Part shown: positions 2,397 to 14,291 of the stretch, in pieces
Layout: the number at the start of each line of letters is the position of its first letter
How positions within the stretch are numbered: position 1 is the first letter of the stretch
From: Thiogranum sp.
GTDB taxonomy: Bacteria > Pseudomonadota > Gammaproteobacteria > DSM-19610
DNA: 64,000 nucleotides
Reading direction: 5' to 3'
NCBI GenBank assembly: GCA_030148805.1
Contig: JASBSS010000035.1
Location: forward strand, 434,001-498,000
Notes under the pieces: model-generated
Database searches by the model: none
What the model saw: the letters and a program-made list of their open reading frames with translations, nothing else
Told to the model about the DNA's origin: nothing
Program-made: the position numbers and the translations under genes

Positions 2397-3149
2397 ATGT
2401 TGTTCAAGCAGCTGCAGGAGCCGGATTCGAGTACTTACACCTACTTGCTGAGCTGCCCGCAAAGCGGCGAGACGGTGCTGATCGATCCGGTGCTGGATAC
2501 CGTGGAGCGCGACCTGCAGGTGTTGCAGGAGCTGGGTTTGTCGCTGACGTATACGCTGGATACCCATATCCACGCCGATCACCTCAGCGGCGCCCACCGG
2601 CTGCGAGCGCTGACCGATTGTCGCATCGCCTATCCCGCCATCGACAATCTGGCTTGCGCCGATATCGGTGTGAAGGAGGGCGAAGCGTTCCGCGTGGGGC
2701 AGATAGAGATCCACCCTTTGTTCACGCCCGGGCACACCAACCACCACCACGCCTACCTGATCGACAACGGCACGCAGAAAATGCTGTTCAGCGGGGACGC
2801 GCTGCTGATCGAGGCGTGCGGGCGCACCGACTTTCAATCCGGCGACGCCGCGACGCTCTACGCCAGCATCCACGAGAAGTTCTTCACCCTGCCCGACGAA
2901 ACCCTGGTCTACCCCTGCCACGATTACGAGCAGCGCTACGTCTCCACCATCGCCCAGGAAAAGCAGCGCAATCCGCGCCTGGGCAAGGGCAAGACCCTGG
3001 AGGAGTTCATCGCCATCATGGATGCCATGGATCTGCCGTACCCGCGCAAGATCGATTTCGCGGTCCCGGGTAACGAACAGTGCGGACAGTGCCCCGACAA
3101 TGTCCCCGAGGCCTATCGCGGCCCCTGTGGCATGCGCGACCAGGGCTAG
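2397..3149 (+). CDS. Persulfide dioxygenase (ETHE1-like metallo-beta-lactamase fold)
   Basis: 250-residue cytosolic non-heme iron enzyme that oxidises glutathione persulfide to sulfite in sulfide detoxification. The MBL metal motif is THIHADH (about residues 57-63), followed by the H of TPGHT, the SGDALLIEACGRTDF stretch typical of ETHE1-type enzymes, and the C-terminal His in YPCHDYEQR. The tail carries three extra cysteines (CGQC and GPCGM) that I do not associate with the common ETHE1 ending. The start at 2397 has a strong AGGAGGA site, so an in-frame upstream start at 2370 is unlikely. Its stop overlaps that of the convergent BCCT gene in the tetranucleotide CTAG. Full length and complete. 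Confidence 0.9.
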   Translation: MLFKQLQEPDSSTYTYLLSCPQSGETVLIDPVLDTVERDLQVLQELGLSLTYTLDTHIHADHLSGAHRLRALTDCRIAYPAIDNLACADIGVKEGEAFRVGQIEIHPLFTPGHTNHHHAYLIDNGTQKMLFSGDALLIEACGRTDFQSGDAATLYASIHEKFFTLPDETLVYPCHDYEQRYVSTIAQEKQRNPRLGKGKTLEEFIAIMDAMDLPYPRKIDFAVPGNEQCGQCPDNVPEAYRGPCGMRDQG

Positions 3150-4741
3150 GCGCGCGAGCCCTGCCGGGCTTGCTGATCGGCAGCCAGCGCGCGTTGCAGA
3201 CTGAGCATCAGCAGCCACAGCAGGACCGCGAACGGCAGGCCAGCGGAAATCGCCGCGGTCTGTAGCGCCGTCAGGCCGCCGCCGACCAGTAACACGGCGG
3301 CGACGATGCCCTCGGTGGTGGCCCAGTAGACGCGCTGGGCCGGCGGCGGGTTGGGGTGCCCCCCGGCGGTGATGATATCGATCACCAGCGAACCGGAATC
3401 CGACGAGGTGACGAAGAAGCTGACAATGACCAGCGTCGCCAGGATACCGCTGGCGCGGATCAGGCCCTCCGGCCAAGCGCTCAGTCCGCCGGCCAGCGGC
3501 AGCTTCTCGAGAAAGGTGAACAGCGAGCGGGCCAGGTCGCTCTGTACCGCCGCGACCAACCCCCCGGGGCCGTTGAGTTCGATGTACATGGCGGAATCGC
3601 CGAACACGGACAGCCAGACGAAGGTCAACAAGGTGGTGGCCAGCAGCACGAAGGCGAGAAATTCGCGCAGCGTGCGGCCGCGCGAAATGCGCGCGATGAA
3701 CATGCCGACGAACGGCGACCAGGCGATCCACCAGCCCCAGAAAAACACCGTCCAGCCGTTCTGCCAGTGTCCCTGCGTGTAGGTCTCGTTCCAGAAGCCT
3801 AGATAGAAGAAGTCGTTCAGGTAAAGGCCGAGATTTTCGACCAAGCCGTTGAGCACGAACAGCGTGGGACCGACCAGCAGCACGTAGAGCAGCAGCGCCA
3901 CCGCCAGCAGCATGTTGAGGACCGACAGTCGCTTGATCCCCTTGTCCAGTCCCAGCACCACCGAGACGGTGGCGATGGCGGTGATCGCGCCGATCAGCGC
4001 GACCTGGATGCCGGCGCCAACGCTCAGCCCGAACAGATGGTTGAGCCCGGCGTTGATCTGGGTGACCCCCAGCCCGAGCGAGGTGGCCACCCCGAACAAG
4101 GTCGCGACGCTGGCCACCACATCGATCAGGTTGCCCCAGAAACCGTGGATGCGCTCGCCCAGCAGGGGTTGGAATATGGCCCGGATACTCAACGGCTGGT
4201 CGCGATTGAAGCTGAAATAGGCCAGCGCCAGGCCGGTCAGGGCGTACACCCCCCAGGCGTGCAGACCCCAGTGGAGAAACGTCGTCTTGATGGCGTCTTT
4301 ATAGGCGGCCAGGGTGCCGGGGTCCGCCCCGTGCGGCGGACGGGCGAGGTGGTAGAGGGGTTCGGCCACGGCATAGAACATCAGGCCGATACCCATGCCG
4401 GCCGAGAACAGCATGGCGAACCAGGTGGCACGGCTGAATTCCGGGGTGGCCTGCGGGCCGCCGAGACGAACGCCGGCGTAGGGCCCCAGACCAAGGTAGA
4501 GGAGATAGGCCAGCACCAGGTTGACCGTGAGCACCAGGAACCAGCCGGTCTGATTGGCGATCCACGCCTGCAGCACGTTGACACTGGCGGAGAAGTCGTC
4601 GAAGTAGAACAGGCTCAGCCCGACGAAGAGCACGATCAGCGCCGAGGCGCCCAGAAACACCGCCGGATTGAGATCCAGCCAGATGCGGCCCTTGCGGTCG
4701 CGCAGTGCGCGGTTGCCCCGCGTGGGGCTGTGCGTGTCCAT
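3146..4741 (-). CDS. BCCT-family betaine/carnitine/choline transporter
   Basis: 531 residues with about 12 hydrophobic segments; a sodium- or proton-coupled secondary transporter in the inner membrane. The family signature is clear in NGWTVFFWGWWIAWSPFVGM, including the tryptophan box, followed by ARISRGRT. It is the last gene of the long leftward osmolyte operon, 15 bp after SDMT, which points to betaine uptake or retrieval of leaked betaine. Length is typical for BctP/OpuD-type members. The substrate cannot be fixed from sequence; betaine is inferred from context. Confidence 0.93.
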   Translation of the reverse strand: MDTHSPTRGNRALRDRKGRIWLDLNPAVFLGASALIVLFVGLSLFYFDDFSASVNVLQAWIANQTGWFLVLTVNLVLAYLLYLGLGPYAGVRLGGPQATPEFSRATWFAMLFSAGMGIGLMFYAVAEPLYHLARPPHGADPGTLAAYKDAIKTTFLHWGLHAWGVYALTGLALAYFSFNRDQPLSIRAIFQPLLGERIHGFWGNLIDVVASVATLFGVATSLGLGVTQINAGLNHLFGLSVGAGIQVALIGAITAIATVSVVLGLDKGIKRLSVLNMLLAVALLLYVLLVGPTLFVLNGLVENLGLYLNDFFYLGFWNETYTQGHWQNGWTVFFWGWWIAWSPFVGMFIARISRGRTLREFLAFVLLATTLLTFVWLSVFGDSAMYIELNGPGGLVAAVQSDLARSLFTFLEKLPLAGGLSAWPEGLIRASGILATLVIVSFFVTSSDSGSLVIDIITAGGHPNPPPAQRVYWATTEGIVAAVLLVGGGLTALQTAAISAGLPFAVLLWLLMLSLQRALAADQQARQGSRA

Positions 4742-4756
4742 GGAAAACTACGCGCC

Positions 4757-5596
4757 TCAGGCGGGTTTGCGCATCTGCACGATGCCCCAGGCGAGATAGC
4801 CGTTGTAGGCGGCATCCACCCAGTGTCCCAGTCCCTGGATCATGCGATCGATGTAGTCATCGGAGACCTTGTCGTGCAGTTCCTCGCGCCGCAGCGCCAG
4901 TTCCTGGCGCACGCGGCTGTAGTGGGTCAGCAACTGCGGCGTGAGATCGGTGACACTGAGTTCCTCCCAGCCCAGGCGAGCGGCCTGCTGGCGATAGAAC
5001 GCGAACGACCCGAGCGTCTCCAGGTGAATGCGATCCAGCACCGGCTGCAGCACGCCCTCCGGACAGTCGTCGGCCTGCATCGGGTCGGTGAAGATGAATT
5101 CGCCGCCGGGTTTGAGCACGCGGTCGACTTCGCTCAGCACTTCGGCGCGCTGGCCCGAGTGCAGCAGCGCGTCCTGGGACCAGGCCAGATCGAAGCCGCC
5201 ATCGGGAAACGGAATCTGTTCGAAGCTGCCGTCGACGACCTCGATCCTGTCGGTCAGCGCCGCGGCCTCGGTCAGCGCGCGGTTGCGCGCGTTCTGTGCT
5301 TCGCTGAGGTTCAGGCAGGTGACGTGGCAGCCGTAGCTGCGCGCCAGCGAGCGCGCGGCGCCGCCGTAGCCGGCACCCAGGTCGATGACGCGCGAGGTGG
5401 CGTCCAGGTTCGGCACCTGTTTGGCCATATTGGCCACGGTGCGACCCGAGGCGATGGCGATATCCTCCTCGGCGTGGGCGTAGTTGCCGATGTGGATGTC
5501 CTGGCCGCCCCAGATATGGAAATAGAAATTGTCCGCATCGTCGCTGTTGTAGTACTCCTGCGCCGTCTTGACCGCCTGAGAATAGGACTGGCTCAT
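4757..5596 (-). CDS. Sarcosine/dimethylglycine N-methyltransferase (SDMT)
   Basis: 279 residues, very close to the Halorhodospira SDMT length. Catalyses the SAM-dependent methylations sarcosine to dimethylglycine to glycine betaine. The SAM-binding motif I is VIDLGAGYGG (about residues 69-78), with later FDLAWSQDALLH and LKPGGEFIFTDPM motifs. The N terminus (AQEYYNSDDADNFYF, IWGGQDIHIGNY) is characteristic of the GSMT/SDMT and related small-molecule methyltransferases. The start is the ATG at 5596, which overlaps the GSMT stop as ATGA; the open frame extends upstream to 5851 but that part is GSMT in another frame. Works in sequence with GSMT. Confidence 0.93.
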   Translation of the reverse strand: MSQSYSQAVKTAQEYYNSDDADNFYFHIWGGQDIHIGNYAHAEEDIAIASGRTVANMAKQVPNLDATSRVIDLGAGYGGAARSLARSYGCHVTCLNLSEAQNARNRALTEAAALTDRIEVVDGSFEQIPFPDGGFDLAWSQDALLHSGQRAEVLSEVDRVLKPGGEFIFTDPMQADDCPEGVLQPVLDRIHLETLGSFAFYRQQAARLGWEELSVTDLTPQLLTHYSRVRQELALRREELHDKVSDDYIDRMIQGLGHWVDAAYNGYLAWGIVQMRKPA

Positions 5597-6408
5597 TGCG
5601 GGTCCTCCGGGATATAGCGTTTTTCGGCCACGTGGATGAAGAAATCCGGCTCGTGCTCGCGGTAGGTCTCCTTGAAGTCGCCATAGGTGGTGACCCGTTG
5701 AAAGCCGACCTCCTGCATCAGGCGCTGGGTGTAGTTCTTGCGCAGCGGGAACATATTGAGATGGTAGGTCGAACCGTCGGAGAAGCGATAGCGGAAGCGC
5801 GCCAGCGAGTCGTCGACGTATTCGGGCGAGGCCGAAACGTCTTCGCCGCAATAGTAATAGTTGTGCGTCGGCTCGATCTGCTTGTCGAGGATGGCGTCGT
5901 AGTTGCGCTGGTCGAGGATCAGGATGCCGTCGTGGCGCAGGGTGGCATAGTATTCGGCCAGAGCCTTGCGCCGATCCTTTTCATCGTGCAGGTGGGTGAA
6001 GGAGTTTCCCAGGCAGATGACCGCGTCGTAGAGATCGTGCACATCCCGGTTCAGCCAACGCCAGTCGGCGTGGATGGTGCGCAGGATATGGCCACGTTTG
6101 CGCGCGTTGTTGAAAGCGCGCGCCAGCATCTCCGGGCTGCCGTCGGCGCTGGTGACCTCGAAGCCGGCCTTCAGCAGCTGCACGGAATGAAAGCCGGTGC
6201 CGGTGGCGACGTCCAGCACTTTCTCGGCGCCATGTTCCTTCAGAGTCCGGATGAAAAAGTCGCCTTCGGCCTGGGCGCGTCCTTCCCAGTCGATCAGCTC
6301 GTCCCATTTCTCCACAAAGGAGTGGACGTATTCCTCTTTGTATTTGTCGGTATCGCGGACGCTAAGTGGATCCTGACCGTAGTCTTGTTGAGCGGGTGAA
6401 TAAGTCAT
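5593..6408 (-). CDS. Glycine/sarcosine N-methyltransferase (GSMT)
   Basis: 271 residues, the usual length for bacterial GSMT. Transfers methyl groups from SAM to glycine and sarcosine, the first steps of de novo betaine synthesis in halophiles such as Halorhodospira halochloris. SAM motif VLDVATGTGFHS lies at about residues 64-75, and the family stretches KYKEEYVHSFVEKWDELIDW and YDAVICLGNSFTHL are present. GAGG lies at suitable distance from the ATG at 6408. The 4-bp overlap with SDMT indicates translational coupling. Presence of both methyltransferases means the cell can make betaine from glycine without imported choline. Confidence 0.94.
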   Translation of the reverse strand: MTYSPAQQDYGQDPLSVRDTDKYKEEYVHSFVEKWDELIDWEGRAQAEGDFFIRTLKEHGAEKVLDVATGTGFHSVQLLKAGFEVTSADGSPEMLARAFNNARKRGHILRTIHADWRWLNRDVHDLYDAVICLGNSFTHLHDEKDRRKALAEYYATLRHDGILILDQRNYDAILDKQIEPTHNYYYCGEDVSASPEYVDDSLARFRYRFSDGSTYHLNMFPLRKNYTQRLMQEVGFQRVTTYGDFKETYREHEPDFFIHVAEKRYIPEDPQ

Positions 6409-6451
6409 GGTGTTTCCTCATTGCTGAACTTGCATGCACACGGTTGCGCAC

Positions 6452-8458
6452 TCAGGGATGCCAGCCGAGCCGTTGCGCGGTCTCGCGCGCCTGGCGCGGA
6501 ACGTCGGCGGCGACGAAATGCTGGTGCAGGATCTGCACGCCCAGCAGGTGGTTGATGCTGGCGTCGAGCTGGACCTGGGTGGCGGTTCCGGTTTCGGGTG
6601 CCTCGTGCAGCGCAAACAGTGCCGCCACGCCTGCCGGATCGAGCAGGCCGGCTTCACGGATGGCCGACGGGGTGAGATGGCGGGCGGCCAGGTCCTGCAC
6701 GGCCGCCCATTTTTTGGGATCGGTATGGGCGGGGGGCGCCATGAAGGCGAATTTTTCACGCTTGTAGAGCACTTCCGGCAACAGGCCCTGCATGGCTTCG
6801 CGCAGCACGTATTTTTCCGTGCGGCCATGGATGCGCATCGACGGCGGCACGCTGGCGGCATAGGCGGCCAGGTGGTGGTCGAGAAACGGCGGTCGTGCCT
6901 CCATCGAGTTGGCCATGTCGACGCGGTCTCCACCCCAGGTCAGTATCTGACCTTCCAGCATGGTTTTGATCCATACATACTGGGCCTTGTCCAAGGGGTG
7001 GCGCTGGTCGAGCATGTCGCGGTCGAACTGCTCGGCGATCGCCGCGCCCGGGTCGTAGTCGCGCAGGTCGGCGCCGAGGTCGGGGTCGAGCAGCGCCGGC
7101 ACGTGCTCGGCGGCGGCCAGCCACGGCTGCAGGCATGACGGCGTAAAACCGATGCGCTCGGTCAAGGCGGCATTCTCCACCGCGTTTTCAGCCAGCATGG
7201 CGCCCTTGAACAGCTTGTTGCTTTCAGCCAGCAGCGCCTCCCATTCCTGGCGCTCCCGTGGCTGCAGGTGGTCGAGGCCGTGGAGAAACATGTCGCGGCG
7301 AAAGGCCGGGTAGCCGCCGAACAGTTCGTCCGAGCCCTCGCCGGTCAACACCACTTTGTAGTTCACTTCGCGCACCCGGCGGCTCATCAGGAACTTGGCC
7401 ACGCCGAGGGTGTTATAGATGGTGCGCTCGGTATGCCACAGAGTCTGCTCGAAGTGATCGTACAGGTGGTCGGAATCCAGCCGCAGGATCTCCTGTTCCG
7501 CGCCGGTGGCTTTCGCCATCTCGGTGGCGATGGGCGTTTCGTCGTAATCCTTGTTGTCGAAGCCAATGGTGAACGCGCGCACCGGATCCTGGCTGGCCGC
7601 GGCCGCCAGTCCGAGAATGGCACACGAATCGATGCCGCCCGACAGATAGCTGCCCACGGGAACGTCGGCCGTGAGTCGATGTTGCACGGCTTCCAGCAAC
7701 TGGGCCCGTACGCCGTCGATGTACTCCTGTTCGGCGTAATCGGTGGCATGATCGGCCTCAAGCGGAAATTCCATGTCCCAGTATTTGCGTTCCTCGATGT
7801 GCAGCCGCCCGTCCTTGCGTTTTACCTCGAGGACATAGCCGGGGCGTACCTGCTGGATGCCCTCGAAAGCGGTGGTGCCGGGCACCATCGTCTGCATCAA
7901 CTGGTGGTACAGCCCCTGGGGCGAGAATTTGCGCGGCACCTCGGGGTGGGCGAACAGCACTTTGAGTTCGGAGCCGAACACCAGCGTGCCGTTGACTTCG
8001 GTCCAGTACAGCGGTTTGATGCCGAAGCGGTCGCGCACCAGCATCAGTCGGTCGGTGTTCTTGTCGAACAGGGCGAAGGCGAACTCGCCGCGCAGATGCG
8101 GCAGGGTTTTTTCCAGGCCGTGGCGGCGATACAGATGCAGCACGATTTCCGAATCGCTCTTGGTCTGGAACACATCGCCGCGCGCCGTCAGGTCGGCGCG
8201 GATACGCTGGTAGTCGTACAGCTCGCCGTTCTTGGTCAGCATCAGCCGGCCGTCGGTGGTGCGAAAAGGCTGCCGGCCGCGGCTTTCGTCGAGGTCGATG
8301 ATCGACAGCCGCGCGTGGCTGAAACCCACGCCGTTCATGCTGCACCAGCCGAACCCGTCCGGGCCGCGGTGATACTGGATGGCGGCCATCGCCACCAGCG
8401 TCTCCGGGTCCACGGGTCGGTCGCGATCGGCGTGCATAAATCCGGCAATACCACACAT
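6452..8458 (-). CDS. Asparagine-synthetase-like glutamine-dependent amidotransferase
   Basis: 668 residues with class II glutaminase domain (mature Cys2 in MCGIAGF; residues 2 to about 210) and a synthetase domain with the PP-loop SGGIDS at 273-278 and a downstream GEGSDELFGGYPAF motif. All visible catalytic motifs are intact, so it should use glutamine and ATP to turn a carboxylate into an amide. The family includes true AsnB and paralogues such as AsnO that amidates a dipeptide in the NAGGN osmolyte pathway. It lies 19 bp after a carbamoyltransferase and before GSMT/SDMT, far from any amino-acid biosynthesis gene. I infer a role in amidating an N-carbamoyl amino acid rather than housekeeping asparagine synthesis, but ordinary AsnB activity is not excluded by sequence. 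Confidence 0.9.
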   Translation of the reverse strand: MCGIAGFMHADRDRPVDPETLVAMAAIQYHRGPDGFGWCSMNGVGFSHARLSIIDLDESRGRQPFRTTDGRLMLTKNGELYDYQRIRADLTARGDVFQTKSDSEIVLHLYRRHGLEKTLPHLRGEFAFALFDKNTDRLMLVRDRFGIKPLYWTEVNGTLVFGSELKVLFAHPEVPRKFSPQGLYHQLMQTMVPGTTAFEGIQQVRPGYVLEVKRKDGRLHIEERKYWDMEFPLEADHATDYAEQEYIDGVRAQLLEAVQHRLTADVPVGSYLSGGIDSCAILGLAAAASQDPVRAFTIGFDNKDYDETPIATEMAKATGAEQEILRLDSDHLYDHFEQTLWHTERTIYNTLGVAKFLMSRRVREVNYKVVLTGEGSDELFGGYPAFRRDMFLHGLDHLQPRERQEWEALLAESNKLFKGAMLAENAVENAALTERIGFTPSCLQPWLAAAEHVPALLDPDLGADLRDYDPGAAIAEQFDRDMLDQRHPLDKAQYVWIKTMLEGQILTWGGDRVDMANSMEARPPFLDHHLAAYAASVPPSMRIHGRTEKYVLREAMQGLLPEVLYKREKFAFMAPPAHTDPKKWAAVQDLAARHLTPSAIREAGLLDPAGVAALFALHEAPETGTATQVQLDASINHLLGVQILHQHFVAADVPRQARETAQRLGWHP

Positions 8459-8477
8459 AAACTAAATGACTCCTTGT

Positions 8478-9536
8478 TCAGGCAAAGGTTTTGAGAATGG
8501 TCGAGAGCAACGCCATGCGCATGAACACGGCGCCGCGCGCCTGGGCGAAGTACCAGTTGTGCTCGGTGCCGTCCAGGTCGCGCGCCAGCTCCGCGCCGCG
8601 CGCCAGCGGATGCAGAATGGCAGAGCCCGGCTTCAACGGCGAGGCGGCGCTCAGGCCGTAGCGCGTTCCCAGCTCCTTGTAGTTGTCGCCGACCCAGGCG
8701 ATGGTGTTGATGTACACCACGTCCAGCTCGGGCAGTTCCTTTTGCATATCGGCGCTGATGCGAAACTTCAGCCCGGCGCCTTCCAGCTCCTCGCGTTGGC
8801 CCGGGACGAACGGCTCGGGCTCGTCGGTGATGATGAGCACTTCCTCGAACGCCGGCGCGAAGCGTGACATGAGAATCAGTAGACTGCGCACGGTACGCAT
8901 CACGCCGGGCACGCCGATGATGGCGAAACGGATGCGCTGGCTGGCGTCGATGCTGGCATCGCACAGCGCCGGGCGCCATTTGAGCAGGGCATAGATATCG
9001 GCCATCGCCTGGGTGGGATGTTCGTCGGTGCCGTTGCCGCCGTTGACGATGGGGATGCGCAGCGATTCGAGCATTTCGTACACCGCTTTTTCGTTGCTGT
9101 CGCGCAGCACTACCAGGTCGCTGTAGTGGTTGAGCATCTCGCCGACGTCGAACAGGGATTCGCCCTTGGCGATGCCGGTGGAGGCCGGGTCGGTGATCGA
9201 CATGATGTCGCCGCCGAGGCGATGCCAGGCGCTTTCGAACGACAGCCGGGTGCGGGTGCTCGGTTCGTAGAAGGCGCTGACCAGAATTTTCCCGGTCAGC
9301 GGTCGCACGCTCAGTTGCGGCTGGGTCTCGTAGCGCGAGGCCAGGCGCGCCAGCTGCAGCAGCTGCTCGCGACTGAACTGGCTGGCGGAGACCACCGGTC
9401 GCTGCACCAGGTCGAGCAGCGAGGTCAGATCCTCGGGGATGCGGTTGAGCAATTCGCGTGGTTGTTCGAAGCCCTGGATGTCCAGGGGCTGATCCTCGAG
9501 CGGATCAAGCAGTTTGCGGCTGTATTTGTCTACCAT
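8478..9536 (-). CDS. Divergent ATCase-like carbamoyltransferase, probably not PyrB
   Basis: 352 residues against about 310 for PyrB; residues 1-48 are an extra N-terminal segment. The carbamoyl-phosphate site is intact: STRTR 93-97, K124, R145, HPTQ 173-176, an RTVRS helix at 214-218 and HPLAR 309-313 (HPLPR in ATCase). The loop that binds the aspartate carboxylates in E. coli ATCase (R229 and Q231 in a TRVQKER context) is replaced by DVVYINTIAWVGDNY (272-286), without Arg or Gln. The acceptor is therefore probably not aspartate. Neighbours are an amidotransferase and, upstream, an N-carbamoyl hydrolase; no pyrimidine gene is near. Proposed reaction: carbamoylation of glutamine or a related amino acid. 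The ATG at 9536 overlaps the preceding 40-residue gene by 7 bp. Confidence 0.85.
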   Translation of the reverse strand: MVDKYSRKLLDPLEDQPLDIQGFEQPRELLNRIPEDLTSLLDLVQRPVVSASQFSREQLLQLARLASRYETQPQLSVRPLTGKILVSAFYEPSTRTRLSFESAWHRLGGDIMSITDPASTGIAKGESLFDVGEMLNHYSDLVVLRDSNEKAVYEMLESLRIPIVNGGNGTDEHPTQAMADIYALLKWRPALCDASIDASQRIRFAIIGVPGVMRTVRSLLILMSRFAPAFEEVLIITDEPEPFVPGQREELEGAGLKFRISADMQKELPELDVVYINTIAWVGDNYKELGTRYGLSAASPLKPGSAILHPLARGAELARDLDGTEHNWYFAQARGAVFMRMALLSTILKTFA

Positions 9537-9652
9537 AGTTGCTTCCTCTTCCAGTCGCGGATCAGCAGCGCGAGCAACAGCAGCGGGGCGGCGGTGGTGA
9601 TAGCCAGGGCGCCCAGCACCAGGGCGGAAAAGACGGTCAGGGGCATGGTCAT
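9530..9652 (-). CDS. Small membrane protein, symporter accessory type (40 aa)
   Basis: A 40-residue frame that starts MTMPLTVFSALVLGALA, has one transmembrane helix and ends in a basic tail (RDWKRKQLW). It starts in an ATGA overlap with the sodium symporter stop and ends 7 bp inside the carbamoyltransferase gene, so it is translationally tied on both sides. Sodium:solute and sodium:pantothenate symporters are often encoded next to such tiny one-helix subunits; the role is probably stability or activity of the symporter. The tight overlaps and membrane-protein composition support it as real despite its size. Confidence 0.75.
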   Translation of the reverse strand: MTMPLTVFSALVLGALAITTAAPLLLLALLIRDWKRKQLW

Positions 9653-11100
9653 GACTGGGTGTCCATGTGCAGGGGATGATCTTCACGCAGCTGTGCCCAA
9701 TCGAAGGCGCGCGGCGCCAGCCAGGTGCCGAGCAGCACGCAAACCATGGACACCGCGGCGCCCACCAGGGCGGCGACGTAGAAACCGATGGCGAAATAAC
9801 TGTACAGGCCGGCGGCGCTGCCCAGCACCATGCCGGCGACCGCCGCGGCTGGGTTGGTGCGCCGCCAGAACAGGCCGGCGGCGATCGGCCAGATGGTGCT
9901 GGCGACAAACGCCCCGGTGAAATACAGCAGCTCGGCGAGCGTGGTCAGGCGGGGCGCGCAAAGTATCCAGGTGAGCACGCCCAGGCCGACGATGATGCGC
10001 GCGGCGGCGCGACGCATCTGTTCGGCACTGGCGTGGGGCTTGAAATGCCGGCGGTAGATGTCTTCGACAATGAGTATGCTGGTGGCGGCCAGCAGCGAAT
10101 CGAGACTGGAGGAAAGCGCGGCAAACACCATGATCAGCACCAGCACGGCGCCGGTGACGCCGAGCAGATCGGCGGCCACCATCGGGCCGACCATGTCGGC
10201 GGCGGGGATGTTGATGTTCAGCGCCGGCACCGCCAGGGCGACAAAGCCGGCGACAATCGGAATCGGCGCCCACAACAGTCCCGCCAGGGTATAGGCCTTG
10301 AAACCGACGCCCTCGCGAAAGGAAAACGCGCGGCTCCACCAGACGTTGGAGTGGAAAACCTCGCCGATGCCGAACAACAGGTTGTTGAACAGGAACATGA
10401 TGGCCGCCGGCATCAGCAGATTCAGCAACTCCGGGCGCTCGGCGAGCACCGCGCTGTGGATGCTGGAGAAGCCGACCTTGCCGATGGCCAGAAACGCGAT
10501 CACCACCAGGCCGACCAGAATCAGCAGCGCCTGGATGAAGTCGGTGCCGATCACGGCGCGGAAACCGCCGAGCAGGGTGTAGCCGACGCAGATCGCCAGA
10601 ATGACGGTCATGCCGTAGTGATAGGGGATTCCGGTCAGGGCGTGGATCAGGATGCCGCCGGCCATGCCCATGCTGACCAGCCAGCCCAGGCTGTAGAACA
10701 GGGAGATGGCGAGAAAGACCCGCCAGGCGGTGTTACCGTAGCGGATGCGTACGAAGTCGCCGCTGGTGTAGCCGTTGGGCATCAGACTCCGAATGCGGGT
10801 TGCCAGCGGCGCGAACAGCAGCAGTCCGATCGAGCCCAGCGAGTAGCCGAGCATCCCCCAGACGCCGATTTGAAAAGCCAGTTGCGGCGCCGCCATGGTG
10901 GTGTTGCTGGTCACCCAGGTGGCCATGGCGGTGGCCGTGCCGAGCGCCAGGCCCACGCGGCGCCCGGCCAGCACATATTCGTCGAGCTGGCCGGCGTTGC
11001 GCCCCCAGTACCAGCCCAGCGCCACCCACAGCAGCGAAAAGCCGGCCAGGATCGCCCAGCCGGTGGAGGCGTCGAGAATGGCGCTGTTGACGCTGTTCAC
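9649..11100 (-). CDS. Sodium:solute symporter (SSS family)
   Basis: 483 residues with about 13 hydrophobic segments and the typical SSS core (GRNAGQLDEYVLAGRRVG near the N terminus, then WVTSNTTMAAPQLAFQIG). Inner-membrane sodium-driven importer. Its ATG overlaps the stop of the amidase gene by 4 bp, and its stop overlaps the start of the 40-residue accessory protein. Position inside the osmolyte operon, between degradation-type and synthesis-type enzymes, suggests uptake or recapture of the operon's carbamoylated solute or of its amino-acid precursor. Substrate specificity cannot be read from the sequence; SSS members carry sugars, amino acids, ureides and vitamins. Confidence 0.9.
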   Translation of the reverse strand: MNSVNSAILDASTGWAILAGFSLLWVALGWYWGRNAGQLDEYVLAGRRVGLALGTATAMATWVTSNTTMAAPQLAFQIGVWGMLGYSLGSIGLLLFAPLATRIRSLMPNGYTSGDFVRIRYGNTAWRVFLAISLFYSLGWLVSMGMAGGILIHALTGIPYHYGMTVILAICVGYTLLGGFRAVIGTDFIQALLILVGLVVIAFLAIGKVGFSSIHSAVLAERPELLNLLMPAAIMFLFNNLLFGIGEVFHSNVWWSRAFSFREGVGFKAYTLAGLLWAPIPIVAGFVALAVPALNINIPAADMVGPMVAADLLGVTGAVLVLIMVFAALSSSLDSLLAATSILIVEDIYRRHFKPHASAEQMRRAAARIIVGLGVLTWILCAPRLTTLAELLYFTGAFVASTIWPIAAGLFWRRTNPAAAVAGMVLGSAAGLYSYFAIGFYVAALVGAAVSMVCVLLGTWLAPRAFDWAQLREDHPLHMDTQS

Positions 11101-11837
11101 GCGTCCACCACCGCCTGCAGCTCGGCGATCGCCTCCGCCGTGGTCAGTACCCGCGCATAGCGGTCTTTCATCGTGGTGATGGTGGCTTGCTGCAGGTCCG
11201 GGGTCACGGTGGCGCAGCCGTCGGAGATCAGGGTGACGTAGAACCCCAGGTCACAGGCGTCGCGGATGGCGGTGGAGACGCATTCGTTGCTGTAGACGCC
11301 GACCACGAACAGCCCGTCGATTTTCAGATTACGCAGCACATATTCGATATTGGTGCAGTTGAACACGCCGCTGGCGGTCTTGTTGATCACGATCTCGTTT
11401 TCCAGCGGGGCCACCGCCTCGATGAACTCCGCGTCCTTCGAGCCCGGCGGCGCGTGCAGCCCGAGGCGCTTGTGCCCGGGCCCGCGGTCGCGGCCGTCGC
11501 GGGTCAGGGACTGGATCCGGGTGTGGATCACCTCGAGCTGGCGGGCGCGAAAGGCCGCCTGCAGACGGGCCACGTTCGGCAGCACCGTCTGCTCCAGACG
11601 GTCGAAGTAATAGTCCTGGGCCTCCACCGGCACGCTGCTGGTTTCGGCATTGGCAAACACACCGTGGCCGCGGGCGGCATCGAGGTACTGGATATCGATG
11701 CACAGCAGCGCGGTGTCATGGTGCTGCAGCGATTGCTGGACCCCCGCGGCATGGGTGATGGAGCTGCGATACGTGTCGCGTAAGGGATCGACGTCAGCGA
11801 ACTCGTTTTCGTTTTCGATGGTTTCCTGCTTGCTCAT
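11097..11837 (-). CDS. Isochorismatase-fold cysteine amidohydrolase
   Basis: 246 residues. The catalytic triad of the cysteine hydrolase family is visible: D48 (LLCIDIQ), K153 (INKTASGVF) and C186 (YSNECVSTA). The family includes nicotinamidase, N-carbamoylsarcosine amidase, ureidoacrylate and biuret hydrolases, which open amides or ureido groups. About 35 residues precede the core, longer than usual. It follows the M20 hydrolase with no gap (stop at 11838, start at 11837). I infer hydrolysis of the primary amide, or ureido group, of the solute made by the downstream amidotransferase/carbamoyltransferase pair. The exact substrate is unknown; signalling or non-enzymatic roles are unlikely given the intact triad. 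Confidence 0.85.
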   Translation of the reverse strand: MSKQETIENENEFADVDPLRDTYRSSITHAAGVQQSLQHHDTALLCIDIQYLDAARGHGVFANAETSSVPVEAQDYYFDRLEQTVLPNVARLQAAFRARQLEVIHTRIQSLTRDGRDRGPGHKRLGLHAPPGSKDAEFIEAVAPLENEIVINKTASGVFNCTNIEYVLRNLKIDGLFVVGVYSNECVSTAIRDACDLGFYVTLISDGCATVTPDLQQATITTMKDRYARVLTTAEAIAELQAVVDA

Positions 11838-13079
11838 TTAACCCGCCAGTTGGTGTAGTGTATGCAGCAGCACATTGGCCCCCGCCTCGATATCGTTCCA
11901 GGCGGTCCATTCGGCCGAGGAATGGCTGCGGCCTTCCTTACTGGGGACGAAGATCATGCCCGCCGGCGCCACCGCCGCCACCACCTGGGCGTCGTGCGCG
12001 GCGCCGCTATTGATATGCGTGGCGTCCACGCCGAGTTTTTCCACCGCCGCTTCCACGGCGTTGCGCACCAGGCGGGCGCAGGGCACGGGCGCGATTTCGC
12101 TGAGAATCTCGTATTCGAACATCAGGCCTCGACGCCGCGCGATCGCCGCCAGGGTGCGCTGGAACGCGCCCGCCAGGCGCTCGAGGGTACTGGCGTCGGT
12201 GTCGCGCACGTCGAGCGAGAACACCGCCTGGCCGGGGACGACATTGGCCGCGCCCGGGTGCAGTTCGACCCGGCCGATGGTGGCCACGCTGGCCGGACCG
12301 CCGTGCTCTTCCAGCACCCGGTCGATCTGTCCGGCGAACTCGGTCAGCCCCTGGAAGGCGTCGGCGCGCAGATTCATCGGCGTGGTGCCGGCGTGGTTGG
12401 CCGCGCCGTTGAGCGTGACCTGCCATTTGAACAGGCCGGTGATGGCGTCGACAATGCCGACCGCCACGCCCTGGCGGTCGAGTATCGGGCCCTGTTCGAT
12501 ATGCAGCTCGACATAGGCGTGAATACTGCCCGGCGGGCGCTGGGCGTGCAGCGCCGCGCGCGCATCCAGGCCGCGCGCGGTCATGGCGTCGACCAGGGTC
12601 ACGCCCTCGAGATCGCGGGCGTTGTGCAACGACTCCGGGGTCACCTGGCCGGCCAGCGCCTGGGAGCCGAACAGACCGCCGAAGCGGCCTTCCTCGTCGC
12701 TGAAGGCGGTCGCCTCCAGCGGGCGCTTCAGGGGGAGGCCGGATTCCTTCAGGGTACGCAGTGCCTCCAGCGCGCAGAGCACGCCGAGCGCGCCGTCAAG
12801 GTGACCGGCGCCGGGGACGGTGTCGATATGCGAGCCTGCCATCACGCCGGCGACATCCTCGCGCCAGCCCAGGCGCGCATGGATGTTCGCCGCGCCGTCC
12901 TGATGCGCCTGCAGTCCGGCCGCCTCGATGCGCCCCAGCAGCCACTCCCGGGCCGCCATGTCGCCGTCGGAAAACGCCATGCGGTAGATGCCCTGGTCCT
13001 CACGCCGTCCGATACTGGCCAGATGCTCGATATCCGCGCGCAGACGGGCCGCGTCAATGTGCAAATCGGCAGGTCTCAC
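11838..13079 (-). CDS. M20-type Zn hydrolase (N-carbamoyl-L-amino acid / allantoate amidohydrolase family)
   Basis: 413 residues from a GTG at 13079 that overlaps the preceding stop as GTGA; the open frame continues upstream but overlaps the membrane-protein gene. The two-metal ligands of the AllC/L-carbamoylase group are present: H84 (AGSHIDTVP), D95 (HLDGALGV), E129/E130 (SDEEGRFG), H193 (LHIEQGP) and H386 (EGRSHSSAEW). The central dimerisation insert with ANHAGTTPMNLRAD is typical. The family removes carbamoyl groups from N-carbamoyl amino acids or opens allantoate. No other purine-catabolism gene is nearby, so the carbamoyl-amino-acid role fits better. It would release the free amino acid, CO2 and ammonia from the compatible solute or its acid. 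Confidence 0.88.
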   Translation of the reverse strand: MRPADLHIDAARLRADIEHLASIGRREDQGIYRMAFSDGDMAAREWLLGRIEAAGLQAHQDGAANIHARLGWREDVAGVMAGSHIDTVPGAGHLDGALGVLCALEALRTLKESGLPLKRPLEATAFSDEEGRFGGLFGSQALAGQVTPESLHNARDLEGVTLVDAMTARGLDARAALHAQRPPGSIHAYVELHIEQGPILDRQGVAVGIVDAITGLFKWQVTLNGAANHAGTTPMNLRADAFQGLTEFAGQIDRVLEEHGGPASVATIGRVELHPGAANVVPGQAVFSLDVRDTDASTLERLAGAFQRTLAAIARRRGLMFEYEILSEIAPVPCARLVRNAVEAAVEKLGVDATHINSGAAHDAQVVAAVAPAGMIFVPSKEGRSHSSAEWTAWNDIEAGANVLLHTLHQLAG

Positions 13080-13465
13080 GGCTGTTCCCCTGCACCGCGG
13101 GCGATGAGTGCCACGGTGGCGAGAAACACCAGGGCGCCGACGGCAAAAAAGGCCAGCGCGCGGCTTAGCGGGTGGTGCGCCACGGTCACGGTCACTGGTT
13201 TGCTCCAAGCGATGATGTTGCCCCCCGGTCCGACTTCGCCCGCACGATAAATCCGTGTCCCGTCGGTTTGGCCGGAAATCACCGTGGCGCGGTCCGGCCC
13301 GGTATAAAGGATATGGGCCCGTTGGCTGCCGGGAGTGCGGAACTCAATAGTGACCTGCGGGGTATCCGCCGTCCAATGCAATTGATAATACCCGGCGGTG
13401 GCCACCTGGGTGTCGCTGCCGAGCACCACGGCGGCGCCGGCGGTGGGGGCGCTCAGCAGCAGCAT
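13076..13465 (-). CDS. Small secreted/membrane-anchored protein of unknown function, start uncertain
   Basis: At least 129 residues: a signal-like hydrophobic start (MLLLSAPTAGAAV), a soluble beta-rich stretch of about 80 residues (TPQVTIEFRTPGSQRAHILY, then VISGQTDGTRIYRAGEVGPGG) and one C-terminal helix (ALAFFAVGALVFLATVALI) with a short basic tail. No family recognised. From the ATG at 13465 the signal peptide lacks a basic n-region; the same frame stays open upstream with RWACAAF just before it, so a longer protein is likely. Upstream there is no in-frame ATG, GTG or TTG, only an ATT at 13553-13555 behind GGGGAG. First gene of the operon, overlapping the M20 hydrolase by 4 bp. It would face the periplasm and might sense or buffer osmotic state; that is a guess. 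Confidence 0.6.
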   Translation of the reverse strand: MLLLSAPTAGAAVVLGSDTQVATAGYYQLHWTADTPQVTIEFRTPGSQRAHILYTGPDRATVISGQTDGTRIYRAGEVGPGGNIIAWSKPVTVTVAHHPLSRALAFFAVGALVFLATVALIARGAGEQP

Positions 13466-13600: not shown

Positions 13601-13700
13601 ATTCTAACCCAAAGCAATTTATATAAAAAATTCAATGGTTCAGCAGATGGGAATTTATAATTAACTGATTATTAAAATATTATTTATTTTCCGCTGTCTA
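13601..13700. promoter_or_regulatory. AT-rich divergent control region between the osmolyte operon and marR
   Basis: The gap between the leftward operon and the rightward MarR gene is strikingly AT-rich compared with its flanks. A TAGAAT -10-like hexamer for the leftward operon reads at 13606-13601, with only a poor -35 (TTTTTA). An imperfect inverted repeat, TTTATAAT then ATTATTAAA six bases later (13654-13676), could bind the MarR dimer. MarR-type EctR controls ectoine genes through pseudo-palindromes of this kind in other halophiles. No other gene-like feature is visible in about 13466-13766. Confidence 0.45.
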
Positions 13701-13766
13701 TGTAATAGTTTGGAGACAAATGATATTAACGTTCAGTTCACACGGTATGCAGGGTTGGACAGGCCG

Positions 13767-14291
13767 ATGGTCTTACATAACACCAAGGTCGATCAGGTAC
13801 TCAGCGCGCTGCGGCGGGTGATTCGTGCGGTCGATCTGCATTCGCGCCAATTGGTGCAAAGCCACGGCCTCACCGGACCGCAGGCGCTGGTCCTCAAGGC
13901 CTTGGGGAGTGCCAGTCTGTCGGCTGGCGCGCTGGCCGAGCAGGTCAGTCTCAGCCAGGGGACGGTCACGGACATTCTCAACCGGCTGGAGCAACGCGGG
14001 CTGGTCACGCGGCTGCGCTCGCAAAGCGACCGTCGCCGGGTCATGGTGGCGCTGGCGCCGGCGGGTCGCGAGTGCCTGGCCTCGTCGCCGCCCTTGCTGC
14101 AGGACCGCTTCGCCTCGCGCTTCGAGGAACTCGACGACTGGGAGCAGAGCCTGTTGCTGGCCTCGCTGCAGCGCATCGCCGCGATGATGGACGCCGAGGA
14201 GCTGGGCGCCGCGCCGGTGCTTTCCAGCGGTTCCGTGCGTGCCACGCCCGAAGCGGTGGAAAAGGTGGTGGAGCCTGGCGCCAATGAGTGA
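13767..14291 (+). CDS. MarR-family regulator, divergent from the osmolyte operon (EctR-like position)
   Basis: 174 residues from the ATG at 13767 (a TTG at 13710 would add 19 residues but lacks a Shine-Dalgarno). The winged-helix core is clear: LTGPQALVLKALG, SLSAGALAEQVSLSQGTVTDILNRLEQRGLV as helix-turn-helix, and RSQSDRRRVMVALAPAGREC as the wing. The N-terminal dimerisation helix RRVIRAVDLHSRQL resembles the EctR group that represses ectoine genes in halophilic methylotrophs, from memory. Divergence from the osmolyte operon makes that operon its most likely target. The last 8 bp overlap the next gene. Confidence 0.85.
   Translation: MVLHNTKVDQVLSALRRVIRAVDLHSRQLVQSHGLTGPQALVLKALGSASLSAGALAEQVSLSQGTVTDILNRLEQRGLVTRLRSQSDRRRVMVALAPAGRECLASSPPLLQDRFASRFEELDDWEQSLLLASLQRIAAMMDAEELGAAPVLSSGSVRATPEAVEKVVEPGANE

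Follow-up and report, generated by a model that had tools for sequence, protein, structure and literature searches.

The window analysed here, a stretch of 64,000 nucleotides from a Thiogranum sp. assembly (GCA_030148805.1, contig JASBSS010000035.1, positions 434,001 to 498,000), holds a compact set of genes on its minus strand, belonging to a conserved bacterial gene set through which N-alpha-carbamoyl-L-glutamine 1-amide (CGA) is very probably made, taken up and recycled. In order of position, these genes encode an AsnB-type glutamine-dependent amidotransferase (6452-8458; PF00733 306 bits, GATase_7 137 bits), a carbamoyltransferase with the fold of aspartate transcarbamylase (ATCase; 8478-9536; OTCace_N 126 bits, OTCace 39 bits), an SSF sodium:solute symporter (9649-11100; PF00474), an isochorismatase-fold amidase (11097-11837; PF00857), an M20 N-carbamoyl-L-amino-acid hydrolase (11838-13079) and a small protein with an FN3-like domain and a C-terminal transmembrane helix (13076-13465, annotated start uncertain). 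The symporter, amidase and M20 genes overlap or abut one another. A MarR-type regulator is encoded divergently on the plus strand (13710-14291; MarR_2 52 bits), its start lying more likely at 13767. The five larger genes had been named in an initial annotation made from the letters alone, and profile searches returned the same coordinates, strand and families for all of them, while the sixth gene and the divergent regulator had been overlooked. The host genome comprises 3.78 Mb and is nearest to Thiogranum metagenome-assembled genomes (MAGs).

Active sites of the proposed synthesis pair and the accompanying proteins

Three transcarbamylases are encoded in the window genome, namely the enzyme at 8478-9536 and the expected ornithine transcarbamylase (OTC) and PyrB, the latter two on other contigs. 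With each of these encoded elsewhere, the carbamoyltransferase can be ruled out as the PyrB or OTC of the genome, which settles the doubt, raised with the initial annotation, that it might be the sole PyrB. It shows the aspartate/ornithine transcarbamylase fold with equivalents of S-T-R-T-R, H134, R105 and R167, and forms a clade apart from PyrB and OTC (tree support 99/99). Across 97 orthologues, the STRTR carbamoyl-phosphate motif, AKGE, H173 and R214 are invariant, and the equivalents of K84, R105, H134 and R167 of E. coli are kept in 97/97, whereas those of R229 and Q231 are lost in every one. Positions 278 and 280 are occupied by A/S/T/K and A/V/S/L, respectively, as against R and Q in 7/7 PyrB paralogues. 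The TRxQ segment of PyrB is replaced with N-x-I-A-W, in which N277, I279 and W281 are invariant, as is HPLAR. We take R229 and Q231 to be the ATCase residues that read the aspartate side chain, and R167 to be the one that binds the alpha-carboxylate. A pocket of this kind would fit an alpha-amino acid with a neutral side chain, and the exclusive use of aspartate, the other outcome considered in the initial annotation, is disfavoured by the loss of the Arg/Gln pair from all orthologues.

The amidotransferase scores 442 bits with TIGR01536 (cut-off 267), and its Cys2, glutaminase residues and SGGIDS motif are conserved in 86 sequences, as befits an AsnB-type glutamine-dependent enzyme. The only other full-length AsnB-family protein of the window genome is an N-acetylglutaminylglutamine (NAGGN) amidotransferase (G000 contig C28:68788-70545, L198). 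As the latter is a separate gene, the enzyme at 6452-8458 can be ruled out as the NAGGN enzyme; it also falls into a clade distinct from the NAGGN amidotransferases (support 100/100) and reaches 315 bits with the NAGGN model TIGR03104, under the cut-off of 570. CGA requires one N-carbamoylation and one carboxylate amidation, and a pair of carbamoyltransferase and amidotransferase matches exactly these two chemistries.

In regard to the hydrolases, the M20 protein matches TIGR01879 over its full length (383 bits, cut-off 204), and its metal ligands H84, D95, E130, H193 and H386 are conserved; the ligands and N279/R292 are kept in at least 98% of sequences. N279 and R292 presumably form the Asn/Arg pair that holds the substrate carboxylate, and their retention, which fits a free carboxylate, suggests that the amide would be removed first and the carbamoyl group second. 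The amidase has the catalytic triad of isochorismatase-fold cysteine amidases, D48-K153-C186, which is kept in at least 98% of 74 sequences.

The SSF symporter stays under every NCBIfam cut-off encountered in the profile scan, and the window copy of the small protein gave no Pfam or NCBIfam match. The AlphaFold2 model of the small protein (pLDDT 93.5) consists of a beta domain followed by a single membrane-spanning helix, and its best Foldseek matches, weak ones, are mostly FN3/Ig domains. Among 58 loci with full flanks (orthologues in L040-L119), 49 encode the small protein together with the symporter and 9 encode neither, with no discordant locus. Such strict co-occurrence suggests that the small protein is an accessory subunit of the symporter, apparently undescribed so far.

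Distribution, modularity and genomic surroundings

A search for relatives returned 18 carbamoyltransferase orthologues, the window copy included, from about a dozen genera, with 17 at 62% identity or above and one represented by a fragment at a contig end; matches beyond these fall to 39% or less. One such relative with 39% identity (L022, G028:C10) carries two in-frame TGA codons and could be a pseudogene or a member of a sister family. Longer stretches around the orthologues show a conserved gene order. In a scan of named genomes, 80 loci with 56-92% identity were kept, from several species of Ectothiorhodospira, from Thiorhodospira, Thioalkalivibrio, Thiohalobacter, Thiohalophilus, Kangiella, Aliikangiella and relatives of Idiomarina, and from Thiodiazotropha and other clam symbionts, all of which we take to be marine, haloalkaliphilic or halophilic taxa. 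Recurrence of the gene order in dozens of loci at this level of divergence means that the gene set is not a product of chance. MAG contigs labelled as Hyphomicrobiaceae (L105) and Leptospiraceae (L117) also hold the gene set, which could reflect either transfer beyond Gammaproteobacteria or mis-binning. A plasmid-borne origin was considered and rejected, as no match above 60% identity was present in the plasmid collection.

In the 58 loci with full flanks, the carbamoyltransferase and the amidotransferase occur together in 57, Thiorhodospira sibirica being the exception, while 45 have the amidase gene as well as the M20 gene. Kangiella, Aliikangiella and one MAG (8 loci) have a more divergent M20 gene without an amidase, and Idiomarina-type genomes (4 loci) keep the synthesis pair and the transporter with neither hydrolase nearby. 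Searches of Idiomarina, Pseudidiomarina and Kangiella genomes found no amidase orthologue at other places; a distant M20 gene (47%) is located elsewhere in an Idiomarina genome. The neighbours scanned at the Kangiella and Idiomarina loci, which comprise an extracytoplasmic function (ECF) sigma/anti-sigma pair, dehydrogenases, an esterase and a protein of unknown function, include no candidate for a substitute amidase. In Kangiella aquimarina (L091, 3096-4330), the sigma/anti-sigma pair is located on the far side of the diverged M20 gene and could exert local control. The SSF gene is missing in Ectothiorhodospira. These counts divide the gene set into three parts, a constant synthesis pair and detachable recycling and transport parts, so that the term operon used in the initial annotation suits the window, whereas in other genomes the recycling and transport genes are variably present.

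The two synthesis genes are also paired at the level of whole genomes. Among 369 Gammaproteobacteria drawn evenly, the carbamoyltransferase (E <=1e-80) is present in 23 and the amidotransferase (E <=1e-200) likewise in 23, and the genomes are identical, which bears out the co-occurrence that the initial annotation had proposed to look for. The four enzyme genes of Thiorhodospira sibirica, with 63-71% identity, are scattered over a single contig at positions 0.66, 1.60, 2.31 and 2.47 Mb. Since all four are kept there in unlinked form, the pairing is not due to linkage, and selection retains these genes genome-wide.

On the downstream side of the set in the window, and on the same minus strand, genes for betaine synthesis and transport follow: a glycine/sarcosine N-methyltransferase (GSMT; 5593-6408; NF051855 501 bits, cut-off 350), a sarcosine/dimethylglycine N-methyltransferase-like protein (SDMT; 4757-5617; NF041675 388 bits, under the cut-off of 550) and a betaine/choline/carnitine-type transporter (BCCT; 3146-4741; PF02028 597 bits). 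A MerR-type regulator with B12-binding domains is encoded at 1268-2200, downstream of the transporter gene. The adjoining betaine genes reported in the initial annotation are thus present in the window, but they stand outside the conserved set, being adjacent in Thiogranum-like genomes and in few others besides. They can be ruled out as members of the pathway, since in most lineages the conserved set is not accompanied by them. Among 144 relatives, glycine/sarcosine methyltransferase genes scoring over the curated cut-off are present in 11/18 carriers and in 4/126 other genomes; this enrichment of glycine-betaine genes has a Fisher p of 4e-9 by genome and 2e-4 by genus, with relatedness corrected only in part. 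The window genome may make three nitrogenous osmolytes, betaine, NAGGN and CGA.

Several lineages have a MarR orthologue adjoining the gene set. The intergenic region between marR and the operon contains a block of 20 bases, ATTCTAACCCAAAGCAATTT (13601-13620), that is found in 4/4 Thiogranum-type genomes compared and is absent from other loci; it could be a promoter or an operator. A clear palindromic MarR operator was not recognized, the search yielding a single weak 11-base inverted repeat. In Pseudomonas aeruginosa, the MarR repressor PA3458 is encoded divergently to the NAGGN operon that it represses (PMC8070244). A regulator common to both systems was rejected, since none of the 13 NAGGN neighbourhoods fetched holds a match to the window MarR, and the parallel with PA3458 is therefore an analogy only.

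A known producer and the weighing of explanations

Accumulation of CGA is described for Ectothiorhodospira marismortui (PMC1224877), the type strain of which, DSM 4180, is represented by the genome FOUO00000000 (FOUO01) (PMC8877833). In this genome (L060), the M20 (5981-7216), amidase (7255-7947), carbamoyltransferase (8001-9068) and amidotransferase (9146-11155) genes stand in a row. Exactly three OTCace proteins are encoded there: an OTC with the HCLP motif, a PyrB-type protein with the R-x-Q segment, and the carbamoyltransferase of the set. The presence of the cluster in the type strain of a known producer, where its carbamoyltransferase is the sole transcarbamylase besides OTC and PyrB, supports the CGA interpretation.

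From the genes we infer the substrates, the order of steps, the transported compound and osmotic control. In the first step, the ATCase-like enzyme, the proposed L-glutamine N-alpha-carbamoyltransferase, would move the carbamoyl group from carbamoyl phosphate onto the alpha-amino group of L-glutamine, giving N-carbamoylglutamine. The AsnB-like enzyme, the proposed N-carbamoylglutamine 1-amide synthase, would then amidate the free 1-carboxylate at the expense of ATP, with a second glutamine donating its amide nitrogen, and CGA, an uncharged solute, would be the product. When osmolarity falls, or when nitrogen is to be regained, the amidase (proposed CGA 1-amide hydrolase) would strip the 1-amide and the M20 enzyme (proposed N-carbamoylglutamine hydrolase) the carbamoyl group, giving glutamine back. 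Re-uptake of leaked or external CGA would fall to the SSF symporter and the small membrane protein that accompanies it. The best explanation of these genes, and quite a probable one, is a CGA synthesis pair accompanied by recycling hydrolases and a re-uptake symporter.

It is unlikely, yet conceivable, that another neutral amino acid (asparagine, glycine, alanine or similar) is carbamoylated, so that the osmolyte is a different neutral N-carbamoyl amino acid amide. From the residues lost in the side-chain pocket, one learns only that the enzyme does not recognize an acidic side chain in the ATCase manner, and with identities of 56-92% within the family the specificity could vary. However, CGA is the compound known from E. 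marismortui, the type strain of which has the set and no other spare transcarbamylase, and the invariance of N277, I279, W281 and HPLAR argues for a single substrate. The symporter, the M20 enzyme and the amidase, nearest to biuret hydrolase and RutB models, have a catabolic look, and the set could instead break down a ureido compound taken up from outside (similar to biuret, allantoate or a carbamoyl amino acid) or scavenge its nitrogen, in which case the carbamoyltransferase would work in reverse and yield carbamoyl phosphate. Such a role is highly improbable, as the constant part of the set is the carbamoyltransferase with an ATP-consuming amidotransferase, an enzyme that would have no role in this breakdown, while the hydrolases and the transporter are optional; furthermore, no carbamate kinase was encountered among the genes examined.

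The two central enzymes could also be functionally unrelated neighbours, the amidotransferase being the asparagine synthetase of the cell and the carbamoyltransferase a diverged pyrimidine enzyme. The TIGR01536 score over cut-off would agree with this, as would the Kangiella and Idiomarina genomes tested for AsnB-family proteins and GatB, which have no other full-length member of this family and no GatB. There is nevertheless very little chance of it, given that a separate PyrB exists and that the amidotransferase occurs in so few genomes, always alongside the carbamoyltransferase, even when unlinked. GatB is moreover present in the window genome and in DSM 4180, and asparaginyl-tRNA could thus form in the window genome without AsnB.

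Some observations nevertheless weigh against a CGA pathway. The loss of the Arg/Gln pair is stronger evidence against an ordinary ATCase than for glutamine as the substrate, and the presence of several other AsnB-family proteins in DSM 4180 makes the argument by elimination valid for the first step only. CGA counts only among the minor solutes of E. marismortui. The set is found in many Thioalkalivibrio genomes, and the paper on T. versutus D301 does not mention CGA; glycine betaine is given there as the main solute and sucrose as absent, but specific compounds were measured and CGA could have been missed. At high salt, the glutamine synthetase and ammonium/nitrate uptake genes of this strain are up and the methyltransferase genes are not, a pattern compatible with a glutamine-derived solute, although not evidence for one. 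No published gene assignment for CGA was found under several spellings of the solute, a result confined to open-access literature.

With these points taken into consideration, the gene set in the window is probably the first to be identified for CGA. CGA would then be an osmolyte that owes its synthesis to an aspartate transcarbamylase turned to a new purpose and to an AsnB-type amidotransferase, and it would be widespread in marine and haloalkaliphilic Gammaproteobacteria, including Thioalkalivibrio, Kangiella, Idiomarina and the sulfur-oxidising clam symbionts. Dedicated enzymes would recycle it, and a sodium symporter made of two parts would transport it. If so, genes would be available for a compatible solute known since 1991 from chemistry alone and reported in one organism, a purple bacterium, transcarbamylases would join the enzymes serving osmolyte synthesis, and CGA would be predicted in many cultured bacteria, where it could be checked by mass spectrometry. 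The pathway is easily masked in annotation, because in profile searches its genes resemble those for aspartate carbamoyltransferase, asparagine synthase and allantoate amidohydrolase. Genes for the synthesis of betaine and ectoine are described as missing from Thiorhodospira sibirica and Ectothiorhodospira magna (PMC7824335), and the gene set suggests how these two may make a solute of their own.

Comparison with known systems

The carbamoyltransferase shares with PyrB the fold and the carbamoyl-phosphate site, and its closest solved relatives are all ATCases (Z about 28). It differs in the lost TRxQ segment, in having HPLA instead of HPLP, and in its score with the PyrB model TIGR00670 (177 bits, and 183 bits for the DSM 4180 orthologue, under the cut-off of 236.95), and it is a paralogue of the PyrB of the same genome. 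Likewise, the symporter belongs to PF00474 together with PutP and OpuE, but unlike these it remains sub-cut-off and is accompanied by the small FN3-like membrane protein at every SSF locus examined. The fold and the Asp-Lys-Cys triad of the amidase are those of BiuH, RutB and nicotinamidase; its score is nevertheless far under the cut-offs of BiuH (73 bits, cut-off 370) and RutB, and its subfamily has no name. The M20 enzyme has the metal- and carboxylate-binding residues of the hydantoinase/carbamoylase family (TIGR01879), and the N-carbamoyl-L-glutamate hydrolase ErtE (NF058540) is among its best models, with 383 bits, under the cut-off of 520; unlike ErtE, it has the synthesis pair as its genomic partner.

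The NAGGN system (AsnO, Ngg and a peptidase) offers the comparison for the pathway as a whole. In both, an AsnB-type enzyme would amidate the alpha-carboxylate of a glutamine derivative that is capped at its alpha-amino group, the product being a neutral osmolyte, and in both a hydrolase gene lies within the operon and a MarR gene is divergent to it. They differ in the cap, which is acetyl/dipeptide through Ngg in NAGGN, whereas here it would be a carbamoyl group added by a transcarbamylase.

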